Below are positions 10,826-31,982 of a stretch of 32,047 nt of DNA, piece after piece. The notes beneath the pieces were generated by a model. The model did not search any database and was not told the origin of the DNA. It worked only from the letters and a program-made list of their open reading frames with translations. Source of the stretch: Tissierellia bacterium. Lineage in GTDB: Bacteria > Bacillota > Clostridia > Tissierellales > Tepidimicrobiaceae. Where the stretch lies: contig JAAYFV010000041.1 in assembly GCA_012728075.1 (NCBI GenBank), forward strand, positions 1 to 32,047. Reading direction: 5' to 3'. Within the stretch, counting starts at the first letter, position 1, and each line of letters begins with the position of its first letter. A program made the translations under genes and the position numbers.

Positions 10826-10849
10826 TAAGCTTAATTAAAATATTGAGTT

Positions 10850-11116
10850 TAAATTCTATGTTAGGGAGTAGTAGTTAAGGTCGATTATCTACAGAGAGCT
10901 GGTGTAGGTGAGAACCTAGCGATATAGATTTTAATGAATGGACCCTATAGAAGCAGTGGGAAAGTCGAAAGATGAGTATCACTAGCCGGAAGCCAACCGT
11001 TATCTATGGACAGGACATGTTAGTGTCCCATTAAGAGTGATGCTTTTGTGCATAATTTAGGTGGTACCGTGGATTAATAACCTTCACCCTAATTTTTTAG
11101 GGTGGAGGTTTTTTTT
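10850..11116 (+). promoter_or_regulatory. T-box leader, tryptophan-specific
   Basis: A cis-acting RNA that senses uncharged tRNA and controls the downstream gene by antitermination. Stem I includes the characteristic AGAGAGCTGGTG and a GGTGAGAACC element. The specifier loop reads AATGAATGGACC, giving UGG (10939-10941), the tryptophan codon. The T-box sequence AGGTGGTACCGTGG is at 11059-11072. The terminator is AACCTTCACCCTAA with TTAGGGTGGAGGTT and a run of T (11079-11116). The specifier matches the regulated gene, trpB. Confidence 0.93.
11079..11116 (+). terminator. regulated terminator of the T-box
   Basis: A 14-bp stem with one G-U pair and a four-base loop is followed by at least six T. 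It forms when tRNA-Trp is charged; the T-box bases at 11059-11072 lie just upstream in the competing antiterminator. Confidence 0.88.
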
Positions 11117-11138
11117 ATTAAAAAAGGAGGAGAAGTAT

Positions 11139-12311
11139 ATGAAAAGATTTAATGGTTATTTTGGAGAATATGGAGGTTCCTATGTACCAGAGGACTTAAA
11201 GGAGGTGTTAAAAGAATTAGAAGAGAACTTTTATAAGTATGTGGATGATAAGGATTTTAAAGAGGAATTAAATTATTATTTTAAGGATTATGTTGGTAGA
11301 GAAAGCCCTCTATATTATGCCGAAAAATTGTCTAAATACGCTGGTGGAGCAAAGATATATTTAAAGAGAGAGGATCTTAACCATACTGGAGCTCATAAAA
11401 TAAACAATGCCATAGGACAAGCATTGTTGGCTAAGAGGATGGGTAAAAACAGAATAATAGCAGAAACGGGTGCTGGACAACATGGAGTTGCTACTGCTAC
11501 TGTGTGTGCGTTATTTGATATGGATTGTACCGTATACATGGGAGCTGTAGATGTGAAGAGACAAGAGCATAATGTATTTAGAATGGAATTATTAGGGGCT
11601 AATGTGGTACCTGTAAAAGAAGGTAATGCTACTTTAAAAGAAGCTGTGGATAAGGCGCTGGAAGACTTTGTAAAAAATGCTCATAATACTTTCTATCTAT
11701 TAGGTTCAGCTGTTGGACCTCATCCTTATCCTATTATAGTTAGGGAATTTCAAAGTATAATAGGAAAAGAGGCTAGAAAACAAATATTGGAGAAGGAAAA
11801 TAGATTACCAGATTATCTAATAGCATGTGTAGGGGGAGGGAGCAATGCCATAGGTTTATTCCATCCTTTCGTTAATGATAAAGAGGTAAAATTTATAGGA
11901 GTGGAACCTGCTGGGAAGGGAATTGATTCAGGCTATCATGCTGCTTCCATTTTAAAAGGGAAACCTGATATAATCCATGGATTTAAATGTTATACATTAG
12001 ATGAAAAAGAAACTAATATCCATTCTATAGCTGCAGGATTAGATTATCCTGGTGTAGGACCAGAGCATAGTTATTATAAGGATATAAAAAGAGCAGAATA
12101 TGTTTCTGTTACAGATAAGGAGGCATTAGACGCTTTTTATAAATTATCTAAGTTGGAAGGGGTAATACCTGCATTAGAAAGTGCCCATGGAATAGCATAT
12201 GGAATAAAATTAGCATCTACTTTACCTCAGGATAAAATAATCATAATAAACTTATCAGGAAGAGGAGATAAAGATATAAATCAAATAATGGATATGAGAA
12301 ATATAATTTGA
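11139..12311 (+). CDS. trpB: tryptophan synthase beta subunit
   Basis: PLP enzyme that joins indole to serine to make tryptophan. The 390 residues match the TrpB1 family. Motifs: [13 protein letters not shown] with the PLP lysine at 87, AETGAGQHG with Glu109, GGGSNAIG binding the PLP phosphate, and LESAHG. The ORF track starts at 11061 within the T-box; the true start is ATG 11139, preceded by AAAGGAGGAG. No trpA or other trp gene lies in the window, and a strong terminator follows. A lone trpB under Trp control suggests indole salvage or an alpha subunit elsewhere. Confidence 0.95.
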
Positions 12312-16763: not shown

Positions 16764-18123
16764 ATGATTACTAAAATCAAAAAAAGAGATGGAAGGGAAG
16801 TGCCTTTCAATATTGAAAAAATAGCAAATGCAATATTTAAGGCAGCTCAAGCAGCTGGAGGTCAGGATTATGATTTAGCTTTAAAATTAGCTGAAGAAGT
16901 AACTTTTCAATTAAATGAAAAGTATGAAGGCCAAGTTCCAGGTGTGGAAGATATCCAGGATGTAGTAGAGAAAACTCTTATAGAAAAGGGTCATGCTAAA
17001 ACTGCTAAAGAATATATTTTGTACAGAGCTGAAAGGACTAGAATCCGAGAAATGGATACAAGGTTAATGAGGGTATACGAGGATTTAACCTTTAAAAGGG
17101 CAGAAGATGTAGATATTAAAAGGGAAAATGCCAATATAGATGGTAATACCGCTATGGGTACTATGTTGAAATACGGTTCAGAAGGGGCAAAGGAATTCTA
17201 CGATTTGTTTGTGTTAAATCCTGCCCATTCAAAAGCCCATAAAAATGGAGATATACATATCCATGATTTAGATTTTTTGACTTTAACTACTACTTGTTGT
17301 CAAATAGATATAGTAAATTTATTTAATGGTGGTTTTAACACAGGACATGGATATTTAAGGGAACCTAATGATATCCAATCTTATTCAGCACTAGCCTGTA
17401 TTGCAATCCAATCCAACCAAAACGATCAACATGGTGGTCAAAGTATACCTAATTTTGACTATGGGATGGCATTGGGAGTGAGAAAAACTTACAGGAAAAC
17501 TTATAGACAGAATCTGCTTAAAAGTATTGAACTATTGGTAGAAGATGTAGATCTAAAGGATAATGTAAACAATATATTTAGTATATTGGAAAAAGAATAT
17601 AATCTAGTACCTACTTTGGAAGATAATGATGAATATAAGCAGAAGGAAGCTGAATACTTAAAGGAGCTTTTAAATGACAATAAAATAGTTGAAAGAATAC
17701 AGGATTTTGCTGAAAGAAATGCTTATAAAGACACGGATAGAAGGACTTATCAAGCCATGGAGGCATTGATTCATAATTTAAATACTATGCATTCTAGAGC
17801 AGGAGCACAAATCCCCTTTAGTTCTATTAATTACGGTACAGACACTTCTCCTGAAGGAAGGATGGTTATGAGAAATCTTCTTCTATCTACAGAAGTGGGA
17901 TTAGGAAATGGTGAAACTCCCATATTCCCAATACAGATATTTAAAGTAAAAGAAGGAGTAAACTATAATCCAGGAGATCCTAATTATGATCTATTTAGAT
18001 TGGCTTGTAAAGTAAGCGCTAAAAGATTATTTCCTAATTTCTCCTTCATAGATGCTCCCTTCAATATTAAGTACTATAAAGAAGGACATCCAGAAACAGA
18101 AATTGCCTATATGGGCTGTAGAA
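16764..18123 (+). CDS. nrdD: anaerobic ribonucleotide reductase, 5' exon
   Basis: Class III ribonucleoside-triphosphate reductase, which makes dNTPs without oxygen. This part encodes residues 1-453 plus the first base of codon 454. Residues 1 to about 95 are the ATP-cone (ITKIKKRDGREVPFNIEKIA). The catalytic barrel follows, with IHDLDFLTLTTTCCQID and NQNDQHGGQSIPNFDYGMA. It ends at YMGCR, where Cys452 fits the thiyl-radical cysteine of the family. The ORF track adds SALRCA, which is read from the intron. The ATG is preceded by TGGGGG. The intron begins at 18124, and the frame resumes at 20743. Confidence 0.93.
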
Positions 18124-20742
18124 GTGCGTTACGTTGTGCCTAAACTCGGAAGAGAGGACGGTACCACTTGTTAAATTAAACAAGTAGAACTATATATTCA
18201 AAGATAGGAATGAGAGGGTAACGCCTTAAAACTATCTCCCTGAACCTCCCAAGTGCATTTTAGTAGCATATGACTAAAAGGTGCTAAGCTGGGTAAAGTC
18301 GCCTGAGAGCTACCCTAAAAGACGAGAGTCTACAGGAAAATTGCAACAATTATTAGTTGAGTAGTGATAGGGCGGGGGTCTAATAGCTACCTATGGTTAG
18401 GATGTCTCTGAACGAGACTGACGAAAACTGGAATGTACGAGTCTAAAAGCCCATTCAGCAGAAATGCTGTCAACACATAATAGTGTGGTTGATGAGGTAA
18501 AGTACAACTTTCGGCTAGGAAATACCTTATAATGTTAAAGGCATTATCAAGTCAACAGGCTCAGACAGTAGCCTAAGGGTAGTATAAATGGAGAGAATAT
18601 ATGGAACGTAAAAAGCTAGTTTACGTAGAGGTGATATAGCCACCAAAGACACGGTAGTTAGGAAAACTAATAAGGTATAACTAACTTTTAAAACTAGTGA
18701 GAGAGGTGTTAGAGTACCTATGAAATACTGATAATAAAGTATGGAGGGAAAGGCACTAGTCGTTATAATTTTGTATAATTTACAATTCCTCACGTTCAAG
18801 GTTCCAGTAAGACTAAGAAATCTACTCATGAGGGGGTAGAAACTTGAACAACGCAAGAGTATATAATGAATACTACGGGATTTTAGAAAAATATGACATG
18901 CTTTATGAACAAAGTAAAAATGGTGTTAAATTTACAAAGCTAATGGATATTATTACTAGCGAAGAAAACATAATGAGTGCATATAGAATTCTCAAAAAGA
19001 ATAAAGGAAGTAAAACAGCAGGAATAAATAATCATAATATAAGTCATTTAGAAAAATACACAAAAGATAATCTAATAAAATATGTCAGAAATAGATTAAA
19101 TAATTATCAAGCGCAAGGAATAAAAAGAGTATATATACAAAAAGCAAATGGTAAACAAAGACCTCTTGGAATTCCAACAATAGAAGATAGATTAATTCAG
19201 CAATGCATAAAACAGGTACTAGAACCTATAATTGAACCAAAGTTTTATGAACATAGCTATGGTTTTAGACCATTAAGAGATAGTTCTCATGCTCTATTTA
19301 GGATGCAATTCCTAATAAACAGATGTCAATTAACATATTGTGTAGACTTTGATATTGAAGGATTCTTTGATAATGTAAATCATGGTAAATTATTAAAACA
19401 ATTATGGAATTTAGGGATAAGGGACAAGAAATTAATTAAAATAATATCTCTAATGCTAAAAGATAAGGTAGAGGGCATACCAATGACCAAGGGAGTCCCA
19501 CAAGGTGGAATAATTTCACCACTACTAGCAAATATATATCTAAATGAATTAGACTGGTGGGTGGCAGAACAATGGCATAAACATCCACTAAATAATAATA
19601 GTGCTAGAAAATTAAAACAGACTAATATGAAAGAAATGTATATTATAAGATACGCAGACGATTTTAAAATCATGTGTAAGAATTACACAGAGGCAAATAA
19701 GATTTACCATGCTACAGGTCAATGGCTAAAAGAAAGATTAGACCTTGAATTAAATGAAGATAAAACTAGAATAGTTAATTTGAAAAAGAATTATTCAAAG
19801 TTCCTAGGTATTGAAGTCAAAGCAAGATGGAGAAAGAATAAATGGACAGCGACAAGCAGAATAGATAGAGAAGAAGTTGAGAACATAAAAGAGAGAATAA
19901 AGAAATGCGTTGATAATATTTGCAAAACACAGAATGAAAAAGAAGTCTATATGTATAATGTAGTCATTAGCGGAATGCATAACTATTATAGCAGGGCAAT
20001 TCAAGTATTTAATGATTTTAAAGAGATTAATTGGGCAACCAGAAAATACCACAAAGTTCGACTTAGTAAATATTGCAAAGAGGGAAAATGGAAAACAGGA
20101 ACTAAAGGTTTCGAAAAATATTTCCAAGGAAGATATAAAACATTTAAACTAGGAAATACACCACTAATACCAATATGTGATGTAGGATATAAAAGAAATG
20201 TAGCAGTAAATAAGAAAAAGAACCTTTATACAGAAGGAGGTAGGAAAGCCCTCAATATAGAAGAGTTAATACTTAAAGATGATTTGAAATATCTAAGGAG
20301 AAATTATAATACACATTGGAATATTGAATACTTTGACAACAGAATAAGTAGATATAGTATGCAAATGGGTAAATGTGCAATAAGTAAATATTACACAACA
20401 CCACAAAATGGAGAATGTCATCATGTAAATCCAAGGTTTAAGGGTGGAAAAGATAATTTTGACAATCTAAGGTGGATTGATAAAACAATTCACAAAGGAA
20501 TACATGCTAAAAATCCAGAAGTAATAGAAAAAGCTATCTTAGTCATGAGAGAACATAGTAAAGATAGTAAAGATTTTTCAAATATGCTAAAGAAATTTAA
20601 TTATTATAGAACCAAATGCGATAGAGAGGAATATAAAATTAGACAGAATTGACGATGGAAAGCCGTGTGAAGGGAAACTTTCATGCACGGTTTGGACTGG
20701 GGGAAAAGGTGGAGATAATATCAAAACCTTACCTATCAGTAT
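18124..20742 (+). mobile_element. group II intron inserted in nrdD
   Basis: Self-splicing retroelement of 2619 bases. The 5' end GTGCG matches the GUGYG consensus and the 3' end is AT (consensus AY). About 720 bases of structured domains I-III precede the reverse transcriptase gene in domain IV. Domain V is at 20660-20693 (AAGCCGTGTG, a GAAA tetraloop, then GCACGGTTT) with the AGC triad at 20661-20663. Domain VI follows to 20742. Excision joins exon bases a and ct into ACT, giving YMGCR-T-RVIGNVYDP, a continuous NrdD. The precise ends, complete domain V and full-length protein suggest it is active. The protein resembles the chloroplast-like class. Confidence 0.95.
18844..20652 (+). CDS. group II intron reverse transcriptase/maturase with HNH domain
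   Basis: Multifunctional protein that helps the host intron splice and move. The 602 residues include the RT domain (about 50-330) with QRPLGIPTIEDRLIQQ, HSYGFRPLRDSSHA, VDFDIEGFFDNVNH, TKGVPQGGIISPLLANIYL and the catalytic YADD at 270-273. A maturase region (about 340-450) follows, then a C-terminal HNH endonuclease with CHHVNPRFKGGKDNFDNLRW and KGIHAKN. The HNH allows target-strand cutting. The start is TTG with GAGGGGGT upstream. The last codons run into the start of domain V. All catalytic residues are intact. Confidence 0.96.
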   Translation: MNNARVYNEYYGILEKYDMLYEQSKNGVKFTKLMDIITSEENIMSAYRILKKNKGSKTAGINNHNISHLEKYTKDNLIKYVRNRLNNYQAQGIKRVYIQKANGKQRPLGIPTIEDRLIQQCIKQVLEPIIEPKFYEHSYGFRPLRDSSHALFRMQFLINRCQLTYCVDFDIEGFFDNVNHGKLLKQLWNLGIRDKKLIKIISLMLKDKVEGIPMTKGVPQGGIISPLLANIYLNELDWWVAEQWHKHPLNNNSARKLKQTNMKEMYIIRYADDFKIMCKNYTEANKIYHATGQWLKERLDLELNEDKTRIVNLKKNYSKFLGIEVKARWRKNKWTATSRIDREEVENIKERIKKCVDNICKTQNEKEVYMYNVVISGMHNYYSRAIQVFNDFKEINWATRKYHKVRLSKYCKEGKWKTGTKGFEKYFQGRYKTFKLGNTPLIPICDVGYKRNVAVNKKKNLYTEGGRKALNIEELILKDDLKYLRRNYNTHWNIEYFDNRISRYSMQMGKCAISKYYTTPQNGECHHVNPRFKGGKDNFDNLRWIDKTIHKGIHAKNPEVIEKAILVMREHSKDSKDFSNMLKKFNYYRTKCDREEYKIRQN

Positions 20743-21710
20743 CTAGAGTTATTGGAAATGTATATGATCCATCTAGAGAAATAGTCAATGGTAGGGGTAA
20801 TTTAAGTTTCACTACAATTAATTTACCTAGATTAGGCTTAAAACATCGAGGAGATATAAAGGGCTTTTATGAAGAATTAGATAGCACTATAGATTTAGTA
20901 ATAGAACAGCTAATAGAAAGGTTTGAAATACAAGCAAGTAAAAAGGTACACAATTTCCCATTTTTAATGGGTCAAGGTATATGGATTGATTCCGATAAGC
21001 TAAATAAGGATGATGAAATAAGAGAAGTGTTAAAACATGGTACTTTATCCATTGGATTTATTGGATTGGCAGAGTGTTTAAAAGCTTTAACAGGATTTCA
21101 TCATGGGGAAAGTATAGAGTCTCAAAAATTAGGTTTGGAAATTATAGGTCATATGAGGGATAGGATGGATGAAACTAGTAGACAATTTGGTATGAATTTT
21201 ACATTATTGGCTACTCCAGCAGAGGGTACTGCAGGTAGATTTGTAAAAATGGATAGGGAGATATTTGGAGAAATTGAAGGAATTACAGATAGAGAATATT
21301 ATACCAATAGTTTCCATGTACCTGTATACTATGAAATTACAGCTTTTAAAAAGATAAATATAGAAGCTCCTTATCATGAGTTGACTAATGCAGGGCATAT
21401 CACCTATGTGGAACTAGATGGGGATCCAACTCAAAATCTAGATGCTTTTGAAAAAATAGTAAGAGCAATGAAGGAAGCAGGTGTGGGATACGGTTCTATA
21501 AATCATCCAGTAGATAGGGATCCAGTATGTGGGTTTACAGGAATAATAGGGGACACTTGTCCTAAATGCGGTAGAGAAGAAGGAAATGTTAAGTTTCAAA
21601 GGATAAGAAGGATAACTGGTTATTTAGTTGGCACTTTAGAAAGATTTAATGATGCAAAAAGAGCAGAAGAAAGAGATAGAGTAAAGCATTTTTCTTGTTC
21701 CTATAAATAA
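20743..21710 (+). CDS. nrdD: anaerobic ribonucleotide reductase, 3' exon
   Basis: Second part of nrdD, resuming with RVIGNVYDPSREIVNGRGNL after the intron. It supplies the rest of the barrel, the zinc-binding CGFTGIIGDTCPKCG, and the C-terminal glycyl-radical motif RRITGYLVG. With the 5' exon it gives 2328 bases, 775 residues. The ORF track begins this frame at 20649 inside domain V; those first 31 residues are intron RNA. nrdG starts 12 bases after the stop. Without splicing neither half can work, since the presumed active-site cysteine and the glycyl radical lie on different exons. Confidence 0.93.
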
Positions 21711-21722
21711 AGAGGTGGCAAT

Positions 21723-22232
21723 ATGGAAGATGAAGTAAAGATTGCAGGAATCATAAAAGAATCCATAGTAGATGGTCCGGGGATTAGATTAGTGGTATTT
21801 ACCCAAGGTTGTGTTCACAATTGTATAGGTTGTCATAATCCTGAAACTCATTCTTTTAGTGGAGGCTATTATATGAAAATAGATGAGATAATAAATATGA
21901 TTAAAGAAAATCCTCTATTAGATGGTATAACATTAAGTGGCGGAGATCCTTTTGTTCAAGCAAAGGCTTGTGCTAATTTAGCTAACAAAGTAAAAGAAAT
22001 GGGATTAAATGTGGTTACCTATACAGGCTATACTTTTGAAGAGATAATCCAGGAGATGAAGATAAATCATAGTTGGGAAAAACTATTGTATGCTACGGAT
22101 ATATTAATAGATGGAAGATTTGACATAACCAAAAAGAGTTTATTATTAAAGTTCAGGGGTTCAAAGAATCAGAGGATAATAAATGTAAAAAAATCCCTAA
22201 ATGAAAATAAGATAATTTTAGCAGATATATGA
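21723..22232 (+). CDS. nrdG: anaerobic ribonucleotide reductase activase
   Basis: Radical SAM enzyme that installs the glycyl radical on NrdD. The 169 residues match the family. FTQGCVHNCIGCHNPET holds the CX3CX2C cluster motif, and TLSGGDPFVQ is the SAM-binding GGE-type motif. SD AGAGGTGG precedes ATG. It is the last gene of the nrdD-nrdG operon and is followed by a terminator, so its expression probably depends on transcription through the intron. Confidence 0.94.
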   Translation: MEDEVKIAGIIKESIVDGPGIRLVVFTQGCVHNCIGCHNPETHSFSGGYYMKIDEIINMIKENPLLDGITLSGGDPFVQAKACANLANKVKEMGLNVVTYTGYTFEEIIQEMKINHSWEKLLYATDILIDGRFDITKKSLLLKFRGSKNQRIINVKKSLNENKIILADI

Positions 22233-22624: not shown

Positions 22625-22809
22625 ATTTTCACCACCTTTTACAAATTGGAAAATTCTATTCGATGTATTCATACCCAAAAGCTATAAGATTATCACGTAT
22701 TTATTTTAAAACTATATAATATAGATTAGATTTTGAGATAAGAAGGATTATAACTATAAATATAGAATAAATATTATATGATAAAAAAATAATCAAAAGA
22801 GGTGGACAG

Positions 22810-23747
22810 ATGAGACCTATAGATATGCATTGTGATACTATACTAGGATTAATAGATGATAAAGGGGGTTTGGGACTATATGAAAATAATCTAAGTGTAG
22901 ATATTAAAAAACTAAAAAGGGGAATTCATTAGCTCAATTTTTTGCAATGTGGGTAAATATAAAGAGTAAAAAGGATCCAATGGAGAATTGTCTTGAATTA
23001 ATAGATAGATTTTATGTAGAGCTTGAAAAGAATTCCCATAGCATTTCAATAGCAACAAATTATGAAGATATAATAAAGAATGATGATAGTGATAAGATTT
23101 CTGCTATTCTTACCATTGAAGAAGGAGGTACAATTAAAGGTGAATTATATAATTTAAGGAACTTTTATAGATTAGGGGTAAGGGCAATAACTCTTACATG
23201 GAATGAACCTAATGAAATAGGATACCCTAATACGACTAGTAAATACAGGTCTAAAGGACTAACTAAATTTGGTCAACAAGTTGTAGATGAGATGAATCGA
23301 TTAGGTATGCTAATAGATGTTTCACATCTTTCAGATGAAGGATTTTATGATGTAGCTAAATTAAGCTCTAAACCTTTTATAGCTTCCCATTCAAACTCAA
23401 GAACTATGAAGAATCATCCTAGAAACCTTACTGATGATATGATAAAGGTTCTTTCGGAAAGTGGAGGGGTAATGGGTATATGCTTTGAAAGGGATTTTCT
23501 AGGAAATACTGAAAAAGCTAGAATAGAGGATATGATTAGACATATTAAACACATTAAAAACATTGGAGGAATAGAAGTAATAGCTCTAGGTTCTGATTTT
23601 GATGGCTCCCATCCTAATTGTGAAATAAACAATATTGGTGAAATAGAAAAGCTTGCTTTTGCTTTAAGTGATAATAAGTTTTCTGAAGATGAAATAGATA
23701 AGATTTTTTATAAAAATGTCTTAAGAGTAATAAAGGATGTATTATAG
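22810..23747 (+). pseudogene. M19 (membrane/renal dipeptidase) family peptidase, frameshifted
   Basis: Zinc dipeptidase family. The ATG at 22810, with AGAGGTGG upstream, begins MRPIDMHCDTILGLIDD, carrying the HxD metal motif. The frame breaks near 22922: AAAAGGGGAATTCATTAG stops at codon 41, while adding one A gives RGNSLAQFFAMWVNI and continues into the ORF listed at 22947. Restored, the protein has 312 residues, normal for the family. The rest is intact, with TIEEGG, DVSHLSD, ASHSNSR and GSDFDG ligand motifs. A one-base deletion or a sequencing error in the GGGGAA tract fits best. The fragment from 22947 alone lacks the HxD motif and an SD. Confidence 0.88.
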
Positions 23748-29585: not shown

Positions 29586-30788
29586 ATGTTAATTATCAAA
29601 AATTGTAGACTAATGGATATGGTAAGTATTGATGAAAAAATTAAAGATATCCATATTAACAAGGAGGGAAAGATAGAGGCCATTGAGGATAAAATAGATA
29701 TTAAAGATTATTCCAATGTGGAGGTAATTAATGCCAAGGGAAGATTGGTAACCCCAGGTTTTATAGAGCCCCATTGTCATATGGGAGTTTATGAAACTGG
29801 TATAAGGGAAGGTATGGATGGAAATGAATCCACAAATCCTGTTACACCTCAGTTAAGGGCAATAGACGCAATTGATCCTATGGATGCAGCCTATGATGTA
29901 GCTATAAGGCATGGTGTTACAACAGTAGTAGCTGGACCAGGAAGTGCCAATATTATAGGAGGTACCTTTGCTGCAATGAAAACCTATGGAAATATATTGG
30001 ACAAGTCCCTTATAAAAGAAGAAGTGTGTATGAAAATGGCTTTAGGGGAAAATCCTAAGTTTAATTATGGTAAAAGAGGTAAGGCCCCATCTACTCGTAT
30101 GATGAGTGCTGCCATCATGAGGGAACAATTATTTAAAGCTAAGGAATATTATGAAAAATTTAAGGAATATGATAAGAGTAAAGACAAATCTAAAGGTTTT
30201 GATTATGATCTAGGCCTACATAATCTAATGAGAGTATTTGATGGAATGAGAGTGAAAATCCATGCTCACCAGGCAGATGATATTTTAACAGCCATAAGAA
30301 TAGCAGAGGAATTTGGTCTAAGATATACTATAGACCATTGTTCAGAAGGATATTTAATAGTAGATGAACTAAAGGAGAAAAATGTTCAGTGCATTATTGG
30401 GCCTACTGTAGGAGGAGCTGGAAAATTTGAATCTCGTAATAAAACCCTAGAAAGTGCAGCTATATTGGAAGAGGAAGGTATAGATTTTGCTATAATGACT
30501 GACCATCCAGTGGTTCCAATAGAAGGCCAGGCTATGCAGTTAGCTTTGTTTGTAAAACATGGACTATCACGAGATAAAGCCTTAAAAGGAGTTACTATAA
30601 ATGCAGCTAGATTGACGGATATTGATGATAGGGTTGGCAGCATAGAAGTAGGAAAAGATGGGGATATAGTAATTTGGAATGTGGATCCCCTCGATACTAT
30701 GAGTGAGGTAGGTATGACCATTATAGATGGGAAAGTAGTTTATGAAAACAAGGGGGATGAGGCTTGTGTTGATTATAAAAAGATGTAA
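29586..30788 (+). CDS. amidohydrolase, catalytically intact paralogue
   Basis: Metal-dependent amidohydrolase-superfamily enzyme (imidazolonepropionase-like subgroup), probably hydrolysing a cyclic or linear amide. In 400 residues the ligands are visible: HxH at His63 and His65 (EPHCHMG), KIHAHQADD (His226/228), TIDHCSEGYL (His251) and MTDHPVV (Asp306). GPGSANIIGGTFAAMKTYG and VGSIEVGKDGDIVIW are shared family stretches, the latter belonging to the C-terminal beta domain. SD AAAGGAGG precedes ATG. The next gene begins within its last 23 bases. The substrate is unknown; the OPT and dipeptidase neighbours suggest a peptide-derived amide. Confidence 0.88.
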   Translation: MLIIKNCRLMDMVSIDEKIKDIHINKEGKIEAIEDKIDIKDYSNVEVINAKGRLVTPGFIEPHCHMGVYETGIREGMDGNESTNPVTPQLRAIDAIDPMDAAYDVAIRHGVTTVVAGPGSANIIGGTFAAMKTYGNILDKSLIKEEVCMKMALGENPKFNYGKRGKAPSTRMMSAAIMREQLFKAKEYYEKFKEYDKSKDKSKGFDYDLGLHNLMRVFDGMRVKIHAHQADDILTAIRIAEEFGLRYTIDHCSEGYLIVDELKEKNVQCIIGPTVGGAGKFESRNKTLESAAILEEEGIDFAIMTDHPVVPIEGQAMQLALFVKHGLSRDKALKGVTINAARLTDIDDRVGSIEVGKDGDIVIWNVDPLDTMSEVGMTIIDGKVVYENKGDEACVDYKKM

Positions 30789-31911
30789 TTTAATAGATAT
30801 GGTAGGTATATATGAGGAGACTAGGGATATAAGAGTAGAAGATGGAAAGATAGTTGAAATTGCTAAGAATATAGACCCAGAAAGATATAAGGATGCTAAA
30901 ATAATAGATGCAGAAAATAATTTTGTAACCCCTGGAATTGTAGAGCCCCATTCGGAAATGGGAGTACGAGAGCAGATATATAGACATGAAGGAAATGACT
31001 CTAACGAAGTAACAGATCCAATATTACCCCAATTAAGGGCAATAGATGCTATAAACCCTACAGATGAAGGGATTAAAGTAGCAAGGGAATCTGGAGTAAC
31101 AACAGTAGTAGCAGGTCCTGGAGATTCTAATTTAATTGGAGGCACTTTTGCTGCATTTAAAACCTATGGAAGTACTGTTGATAAAATGATAATAGAAGAT
31201 GAAATAGCATTTAAAATATCCTTAGGGAATACTCCTAAAAAAGCCTATGGTAGTAGAGACATGATGCCTAAAACAAGGATGGCATCTGCTGCTATGATTA
31301 GAGAGGCCTTCATAAAGGCTAAAGAGTACCATAGACAGTATCATTCAGAAAATCCTCCTAAATTTGATATGAAGATGCATTCCTTAATGAGAATATATGA
31401 TGGAATGCTAGTGAAGTTTACAGCCCATCAAGCCTATGATATAGTTACAGCTATAAGATTAGGTGAGGAGTTTAATTTAAATTACACAGTAGATAAATGT
31501 AGCGAGGCGTATTTAATAGCAGAAGAATTAAAGGAGTTTCATCCAAAGCTTGTCATAGGTCCTGCTTATGGGGGAAAAAGGGATCATGAAATAAGAAATA
31601 GGGACACAATAATAGGCTCAGCAATGGAAAAGAATGGTTTGGATTTCTGTATATCTACAGGGCATCCTACGGTAGATATAAGTATGACCATGGTTCAAAC
31701 TATAATGATGCATAAAAAGGGACTATCTAGAAAAACTGCCTTAGAGGCCATGACTATTAATGCAGCCAATATGGTAGGCTTAGGAGATAGAATTGGTAGC
31801 ATAGAAGTAGGAAAAGATGCAGATATAGTGATTTGGGATGGGGAACCTTTGGATTACTATACATCACCTAATACGGTAATTATAGATGGAAATATCGTTT
31901 ATAATAGATAA
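30766..31911 (+). CDS. amidohydrolase paralogue lacking metal ligands
   Basis: The 381-residue protein aligns end to end with its upstream neighbour and keeps GPGDSNLIGGTFAAFKTYG and IGSIEVGKDADIVIW. Most metal ligands have changed: HxH to HxE (His62, Glu64 in EPHSEMG), HAHQ to TAHQ (Thr219), DH to DK (Lys244 in VDKCSEAYL) and TDHP to TGHP (Gly299). The reading frame is intact, so selection seems to keep it. Start: GTG 30766, giving LIIKRCNLIDM aligned with MLIIKNCRLMDM and preceded by AAGGGGGATGAGG; the ORF track begins at 30742. It overlaps the first gene by 23 bases, so it is probably co-translated as an inactive or altered-specificity partner. Confidence 0.85.
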   Translation: MLIIKRCNLIDMVGIYEETRDIRVEDGKIVEIAKNIDPERYKDAKIIDAENNFVTPGIVEPHSEMGVREQIYRHEGNDSNEVTDPILPQLRAIDAINPTDEGIKVARESGVTTVVAGPGDSNLIGGTFAAFKTYGSTVDKMIIEDEIAFKISLGNTPKKAYGSRDMMPKTRMASAAMIREAFIKAKEYHRQYHSENPPKFDMKMHSLMRIYDGMLVKFTAHQAYDIVTAIRLGEEFNLNYTVDKCSEAYLIAEELKEFHPKLVIGPAYGGKRDHEIRNRDTIIGSAMEKNGLDFCISTGHPTVDISMTMVQTIMMHKKGLSRKTALEAMTINAANMVGLGDRIGSIEVGKDADIVIWDGEPLDYYTSPNTVIIDGNIVYNR

Positions 31912-31936
31912 AAATATTAATAATATGCGAAAAATG

Positions 31937-31982
31937 CGAGTAGATTTTTATATTGTTATAAAAATCTACTCGTATTTTTTCT
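31937..31982 (+). terminator. terminator after the amidohydrolase pair
   Basis: A perfect 16-bp stem, CGAGTAGATTTTTATA with TATAAAAATCTACTCG, has a four-base loop and is followed by TATTTTTT. Confidence 0.88.

Follow-up and report, generated by a model that had tools for sequence, protein, structure and literature searches.

Why should a bacterium keep, overlapping an intact amidohydrolase gene, a full-length second copy that lacks the metal-binding residues? The question is raised by gene A (29586..30788, forward strand, 400 amino acids) and gene B (30766..31911, forward strand, 381 amino acids from a GTG start), two paralogues in a 32,047-nucleotide stretch of DNA (hereafter the window) from contig JAAYFV010000041.1 of a Tissierellia bacterium (GCA_012728075.1). 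The host genome is a draft in 229 contigs (98.55% complete, 3.19% contamination), and the pair was found independently in relatives. We consider it probable that A and B make up one heteromeric metal-dependent amidohydrolase, with A as the catalytic subunit and B as a structural or regulatory pseudoenzyme.

The overlapping gene pair and its family

The initial annotation had described two overlapping genes that align over their full lengths, the second without a stop or frameshift, and this description was borne out by BLASTP (195/387 residues identical, 50%, E 1e-134) and by the uninterrupted reading frame of B. The overlap amounts to 23 nt (30766..30788, forward strand) at the conserved start of B and to 47 nt at the longest open reading frame, an in-frame ATG at 30742 being a possible alternative start. 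A possible ribosome-binding stretch (about AAGGGGGATGAGG; 30746..30758, forward strand) lies within A just 5' of the GTG of B, and a terminator-like hairpin followed by a T run (31931..31978, forward strand; 20-pair stem with four GC pairs by pattern scan) closes the unit. Since the next gene upstream of A, encoding an OPT transporter, is divergently oriented, A and B look like a two-gene unit. The overlap was also present in each of the seven genomes, counting the window's own, in which A and B share a contig; it spans 14-26 nt when measured from the conserved (M/V)LIIK/TLIIK start and 38-62 nt from that of the longest open reading frame, and the two genes are likely to be translationally coupled through it.

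Both proteins score above the Pfam cut-offs for Amidohydro_1/Amidohydro_3 of the amidohydrolase superfamily, and no NCBIfam equivalog fits either of them. Imidazolonepropionase (HutI), the top match of A, was rejected as an identity, with TIGR01224 scores of 67.9 for A and 56.7 for B against a cut-off of 298. The nearest PDB structure of both is 3OOQ, a structural genomics entry that we take to be the Thermotoga maritima amidohydrolase TM0814; it matches both over the full length (E 4.6e-84 for A, 7e-67 for B) and shares their family-specific loops, and its ligands are intact, as in A and unlike in B. No paper on TM0814 or 3OOQ was found in a literature search confined largely to open-access papers, and the 3OOQ-like family is little studied and uncharacterised. 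AlphaFold2 monomer models built from six-sequence alignments reached a pLDDT of 43.2 for A and 38.7 for B, values too low for the models to be used.

All ligand motifs (HCH, KIH, DH, and TD) are present in A, where H63, H65, H226, H251, and D306 were assigned by the superfamily motif pattern together with conservation and not by a solved metal site. The resulting HHHHD set, which is that of the catalytic members of the 3OOQ-like family, is found in A and its seven orthologues alike (8/8) and is absent from B, which carries His, Glu, Thr, Lys, and Gly (HETKG) at the same positions with four of the five ligands lost. The three replacements listed in the initial annotation, namely the second His of HxH by Glu (HCH to HSE), the IDH His by Lys (IDH to VDK), and the TDHP Asp by Gly (TDHP to TGHP), were all found in B; the list was incomplete in that it overlooked a further loss on strand 5 (KIHAHQ to KFTAHQ).

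Conservation of gene B and the residues it has lost

Absence of the second gene from related genomes, or random ligand losses in them, had been named as what a decaying duplicate would show. In a search across 249 genomes from the host's order, B orthologues were recovered in seven others, every one ligand-less and accompanied by an A orthologue, at identities of 94% in Clostridium sp. Cult3 (G014), 90% in a Tissierellia MAG (G009), 87% in G023, where the copy is split by a contig edge, 78% in G228, 57% in G118, and about 50% in G140 and G141. A scan of viral contigs for B gave no match, and a scan of genome contigs returned only two loci.

None of the B genes in the eight genomes contains a stop or frameshift (one copy ends at a contig edge). 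Between the window and G014, the closest pair, dN/dS with the overlap removed is 0.058 (0.032-0.088) for B and 0.115 (0.076-0.173) for A; over the five closest comparisons, B ranges from 0.055 to 0.120 and is no higher than A, larger distances having been left out because synonymous sites were saturated. Relaxed selection and disruptions, the signs of a pseudogene, are absent, and B is under purifying selection, not decaying. A ligand-less paralogue is co-retained with its active partner under selection, and we infer its inactivity from the loss of the ligands.

The ligand positions of the orthologues read HQTKG, SSTRG, and SSERN: across the B copies, HSE, HCQ, SCS, or SSS stands at HxH, Thr or Glu on strand 5, Lys or Arg on strand 6, and Gly or Asn on strand 8. 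The anticipated conservation of the replacements in relatives therefore held for the IDH position, which is always basic, and for the Asp position, which is always Gly or Asn (both 8/8), and failed for the Glu of the window copy, the position of which is occupied by Glu, Gln, or Ser. H63, the first His of HxH, is lost in three of the seven B proteins compared.

Out of 51 reference positions with an invariance of 95% or more across 144 active members, only seven (H65, S120, A152, N156, H226, H251, and D306) were fully or almost fully lost in B of the window type. The two other ligand-less clades of the family, introduced below, lose nearly the same set, with D306 kept in the second type; A152 is replaced mostly by Ser or Thr in all three clades, the polar non-ligand residues E81 and K158 are kept throughout, as are M172 and P168, R171 is kept or becomes Lys, and the strand-6 His position holds Gly, Tyr, Ser, or Asn in the other clades. 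The active site has thus been selectively erased within an otherwise retained protein, which is what one would expect of a subunit maintained for its fold, its surface, or regulation. E81 and K158 may, at a guess, lie at the subunit interface.

Repeated origin of ligand-less copies in the 3OOQ-like family

Among the 138 family members read, eight ligand-less copies belong to the window type, 16 to a second type with the dead copy as the first gene of the pair, and nine to a third type with the dead copy as the second gene. Thirty of these 33 adjoin an intact copy, the remaining three (L063, L166, and L169) lying at contig edges; an adjacent intact copy accompanies all 32 ligand-less copies situated away from contig edges. 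The restriction of dead copies to the side of live ones is a statement about the copies read. Single copies at loci not picked for tandems were intact in 58 of 59 cases, with one partial reading. These single and pair frequencies are not population estimates, because the survey used one genome per species, scored four to seven candidates per genome at first look in the wide searches, and drew on regions picked partly for being tandem.

The host genome itself holds two further family loci, a single intact copy (contig C113) and a second tandem pair on contig C35 (L069, 4412-6696), the latter with the dead copy first, the live copy second, and Opp/Dpp-type transporter genes upstream. At one second-type locus (L079, 8437-10378, genome G017), the active partner appears broken into open reading frames of 318 and 253 amino acids beside an intact dead copy.

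In a first tree, from which the ligand columns had been left out, the ligand-less proteins formed three clades; well-supported branches required a minimum of three state changes, compared with an average of 26.5 when labels were shuffled. Within each pair type, the active and ligand-less subtrees agree in branching order at most of the supported forks. A second tree, widened to include members found elsewhere in the phylum, placed each dead clade as sister to its own live partner (support 100/99, 100/96, and 99/86). It also brought in a fourth ligand-less case, the distant genome G964, with support of only 92/64 and long branches, where three copies stand in tandem (L201, 4346-7827), the middle one intact and both flanking ones ligand-broken (HQHND and HQHFN); G964 is possibly a fourth independent origin. 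Dead-site twins arose at least three, and probably four, separate times in the family, and because they did so repeatedly and always beside a working copy, B probably serves as a retained partner subunit and is unlikely to be junk.

In other parts of the phylum, two intact copies, often overlapping, make up most of the tandems read. Some of these are co-inherited as pairs (f112/f202/f154), and the overlapping tandems L183, L193, L194, and L198 are inherited together across several families of the phylum, which is what one would expect were pairing to come before the loss of a site; they may show heteromers before one site is lost. Pairing is thus common in the family, and site loss recurs inside pairs. 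A broader generalisation, which we put forward tentatively and would not yet call probable, is that the family is prone to obligate hetero-oligomers of tandem paralogues, in which at least four times one subunit would have become a metal-free regulator or scaffold through the erasure of nearly the same active-site residues. Dead paralogue subunits are usually known singly, whereas here at least three independent cases, with a probable fourth, each stand beside an active partner, and how heteromers lose one site and what the dead subunit does become testable across replicates within one family. If true, the repeated erasure would be a natural replicate experiment in pseudoenzyme evolution. It also carries a warning for annotation, as the dead partners would be named hydrolases and should not bind metal in the usual way.

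The role of B and possible substrates of the pair

In the heteromer considered probable here, A would hold the only working metal site, and B, with its fold and most family-invariant residues retained and no metal site, would be a structural or regulatory pseudoenzyme subunit needed by A for assembly, stability, or control, the gene overlap serving to balance the synthesis of the two. The pair would have originated by local duplication followed by the loss of one active site, independently several times in the 3OOQ-like family. The initial annotation had likewise proposed a heteromer with a regulatory or scaffold subunit; the kept pair is supported by selection and by the orthologues, and association with a non-catalytic subunit is the best reading of it. 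On the other side, adjacent tandem duplicates could be co-inherited through linkage alone, and since many active relatives work without a partner, A might do so too.

An arrangement of this kind is already known from other proteins. AibH1H2 is an (alpha-beta)2 heterotetramer with one catalytic and one mainly structural subunit, the former related to a hydroxylase repurposed from the amidohydrolase superfamily (PMC10401708, PMC12141560). The likeness to A and B would lie in this division of labour; AibH1H2 differs in being an oxygenase from another branch of the superfamily, and AibH1 still binds metal, whereas B is predicted not to. In the aspartate transcarbamoylase of Pseudomonas aeruginosa, the pseudo-dihydroorotase (pDHO) chain resembles dihydroorotase, is inactive, and is required by its partner enzyme, and related pDHO domains are without zinc ligands (PMC7053772); this chain would resemble B as an inactive homologue and differs in having an unrelated enzyme as its partner instead of a paralogue. 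In the trypanosome prozyme/AdoMetDC and DHS pairs, a dead paralogue activates the live enzyme within a heteromer (PMC5201418, PMC3663545), with folds unrelated to those of A and B and in eukaryotes. No description of a tandem dead-site pair in the 3OOQ-like family was found in a literature search confined largely to open-access papers, and within that scope its occurrence in this family is apparently undescribed.

Alternatively, B might be a metal-free binding protein or sensor for the substrate or product of A, acting without a stable stoichiometric complex, with the basic residue in place of the strand-6 His binding an anionic ligand in the old pocket. The unbroken Lys/Arg and Gly/Asn conservation in window-type B would suit such a role, as would the retention of most other family-invariant positions. 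We nevertheless regard it as unlikely, given that the residues found at the strand-6 position in the other clades mean that the ligand-less copies do not generally share a basic pocket, and that the tight overlap and matching inheritance suggest a fixed stoichiometry. It is very improbable that B is a working enzyme with a new chemistry in which Glu and Lys stand in for the metal, as the initial annotation had also suggested: a full-length protein under purifying selection with a conserved Lys/Arg could be read in this way, but the Glu varies among orthologues, the first His is also lost in three of them, and independent clades have lost the same active-site positions to differing residues. 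Decay of a duplicate, for which the lost ligands and the differences in some replacements between genomes might speak, is almost certainly not the explanation in view of a dN/dS of 0.06-0.12, eight genomes without a stop or frameshift, and orthologues down to about 47-50% identity.

The OPT transporter, PqqD-like protein, and PepV dipeptidase of the window, from which a peptide-use system had been proposed, lie near the pair in no other genome with a window-type pair. The neighbours vary: G014 has an aldo/keto reductase and an HMGL-like protein, G140 has an AbgT-type transporter, and G118 has a third amidohydrolase from outside the 3OOQ-like set directly 3' of the pair (L065, 5989-7092). The proposed setting is thus not conserved for the window-type pair, and its peptide theme reappears in the two sister types, whose conserved operons encode permeases and ATPases (oligo_HPY) of Opp/Dpp ABC transporters along with an SBP_bac_5 binding protein, joined in part of the second-type operons by an M14 carboxypeptidase and in those of the third type by an M20 peptidase, an AroM protein, and a PucR regulator. 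Because of these transporter operons with peptidases, a peptide-derived substrate is plausible for the second and third types; for the window pair they give only a hint, and a peptide-derived amide or cyclic amide would be our guess from the sister operons.

Several other features of the window were observed. An M19 membrane dipeptidase (22807-23747) is split by a frameshift, its N-terminal part with the MHCDT motif lying in a different frame from the 22947-23747 open reading frame, which reflects either a sequencing error or a pseudogene. A group II intron (RF02004 at 18185-18386, RF00029 at 20658-20742, and a reverse-transcriptase open reading frame at 18844-20652) interrupts an apparent anaerobic ribonucleotide reductase gene, nrdD (16764-21710), which is followed by nrdG at 21723, both genes being named from sequence. 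Finally, a T-box leader (10849-11094; Rfam RF00230, 112.9 bits) lies ahead of the 11061-12311 open reading frame.
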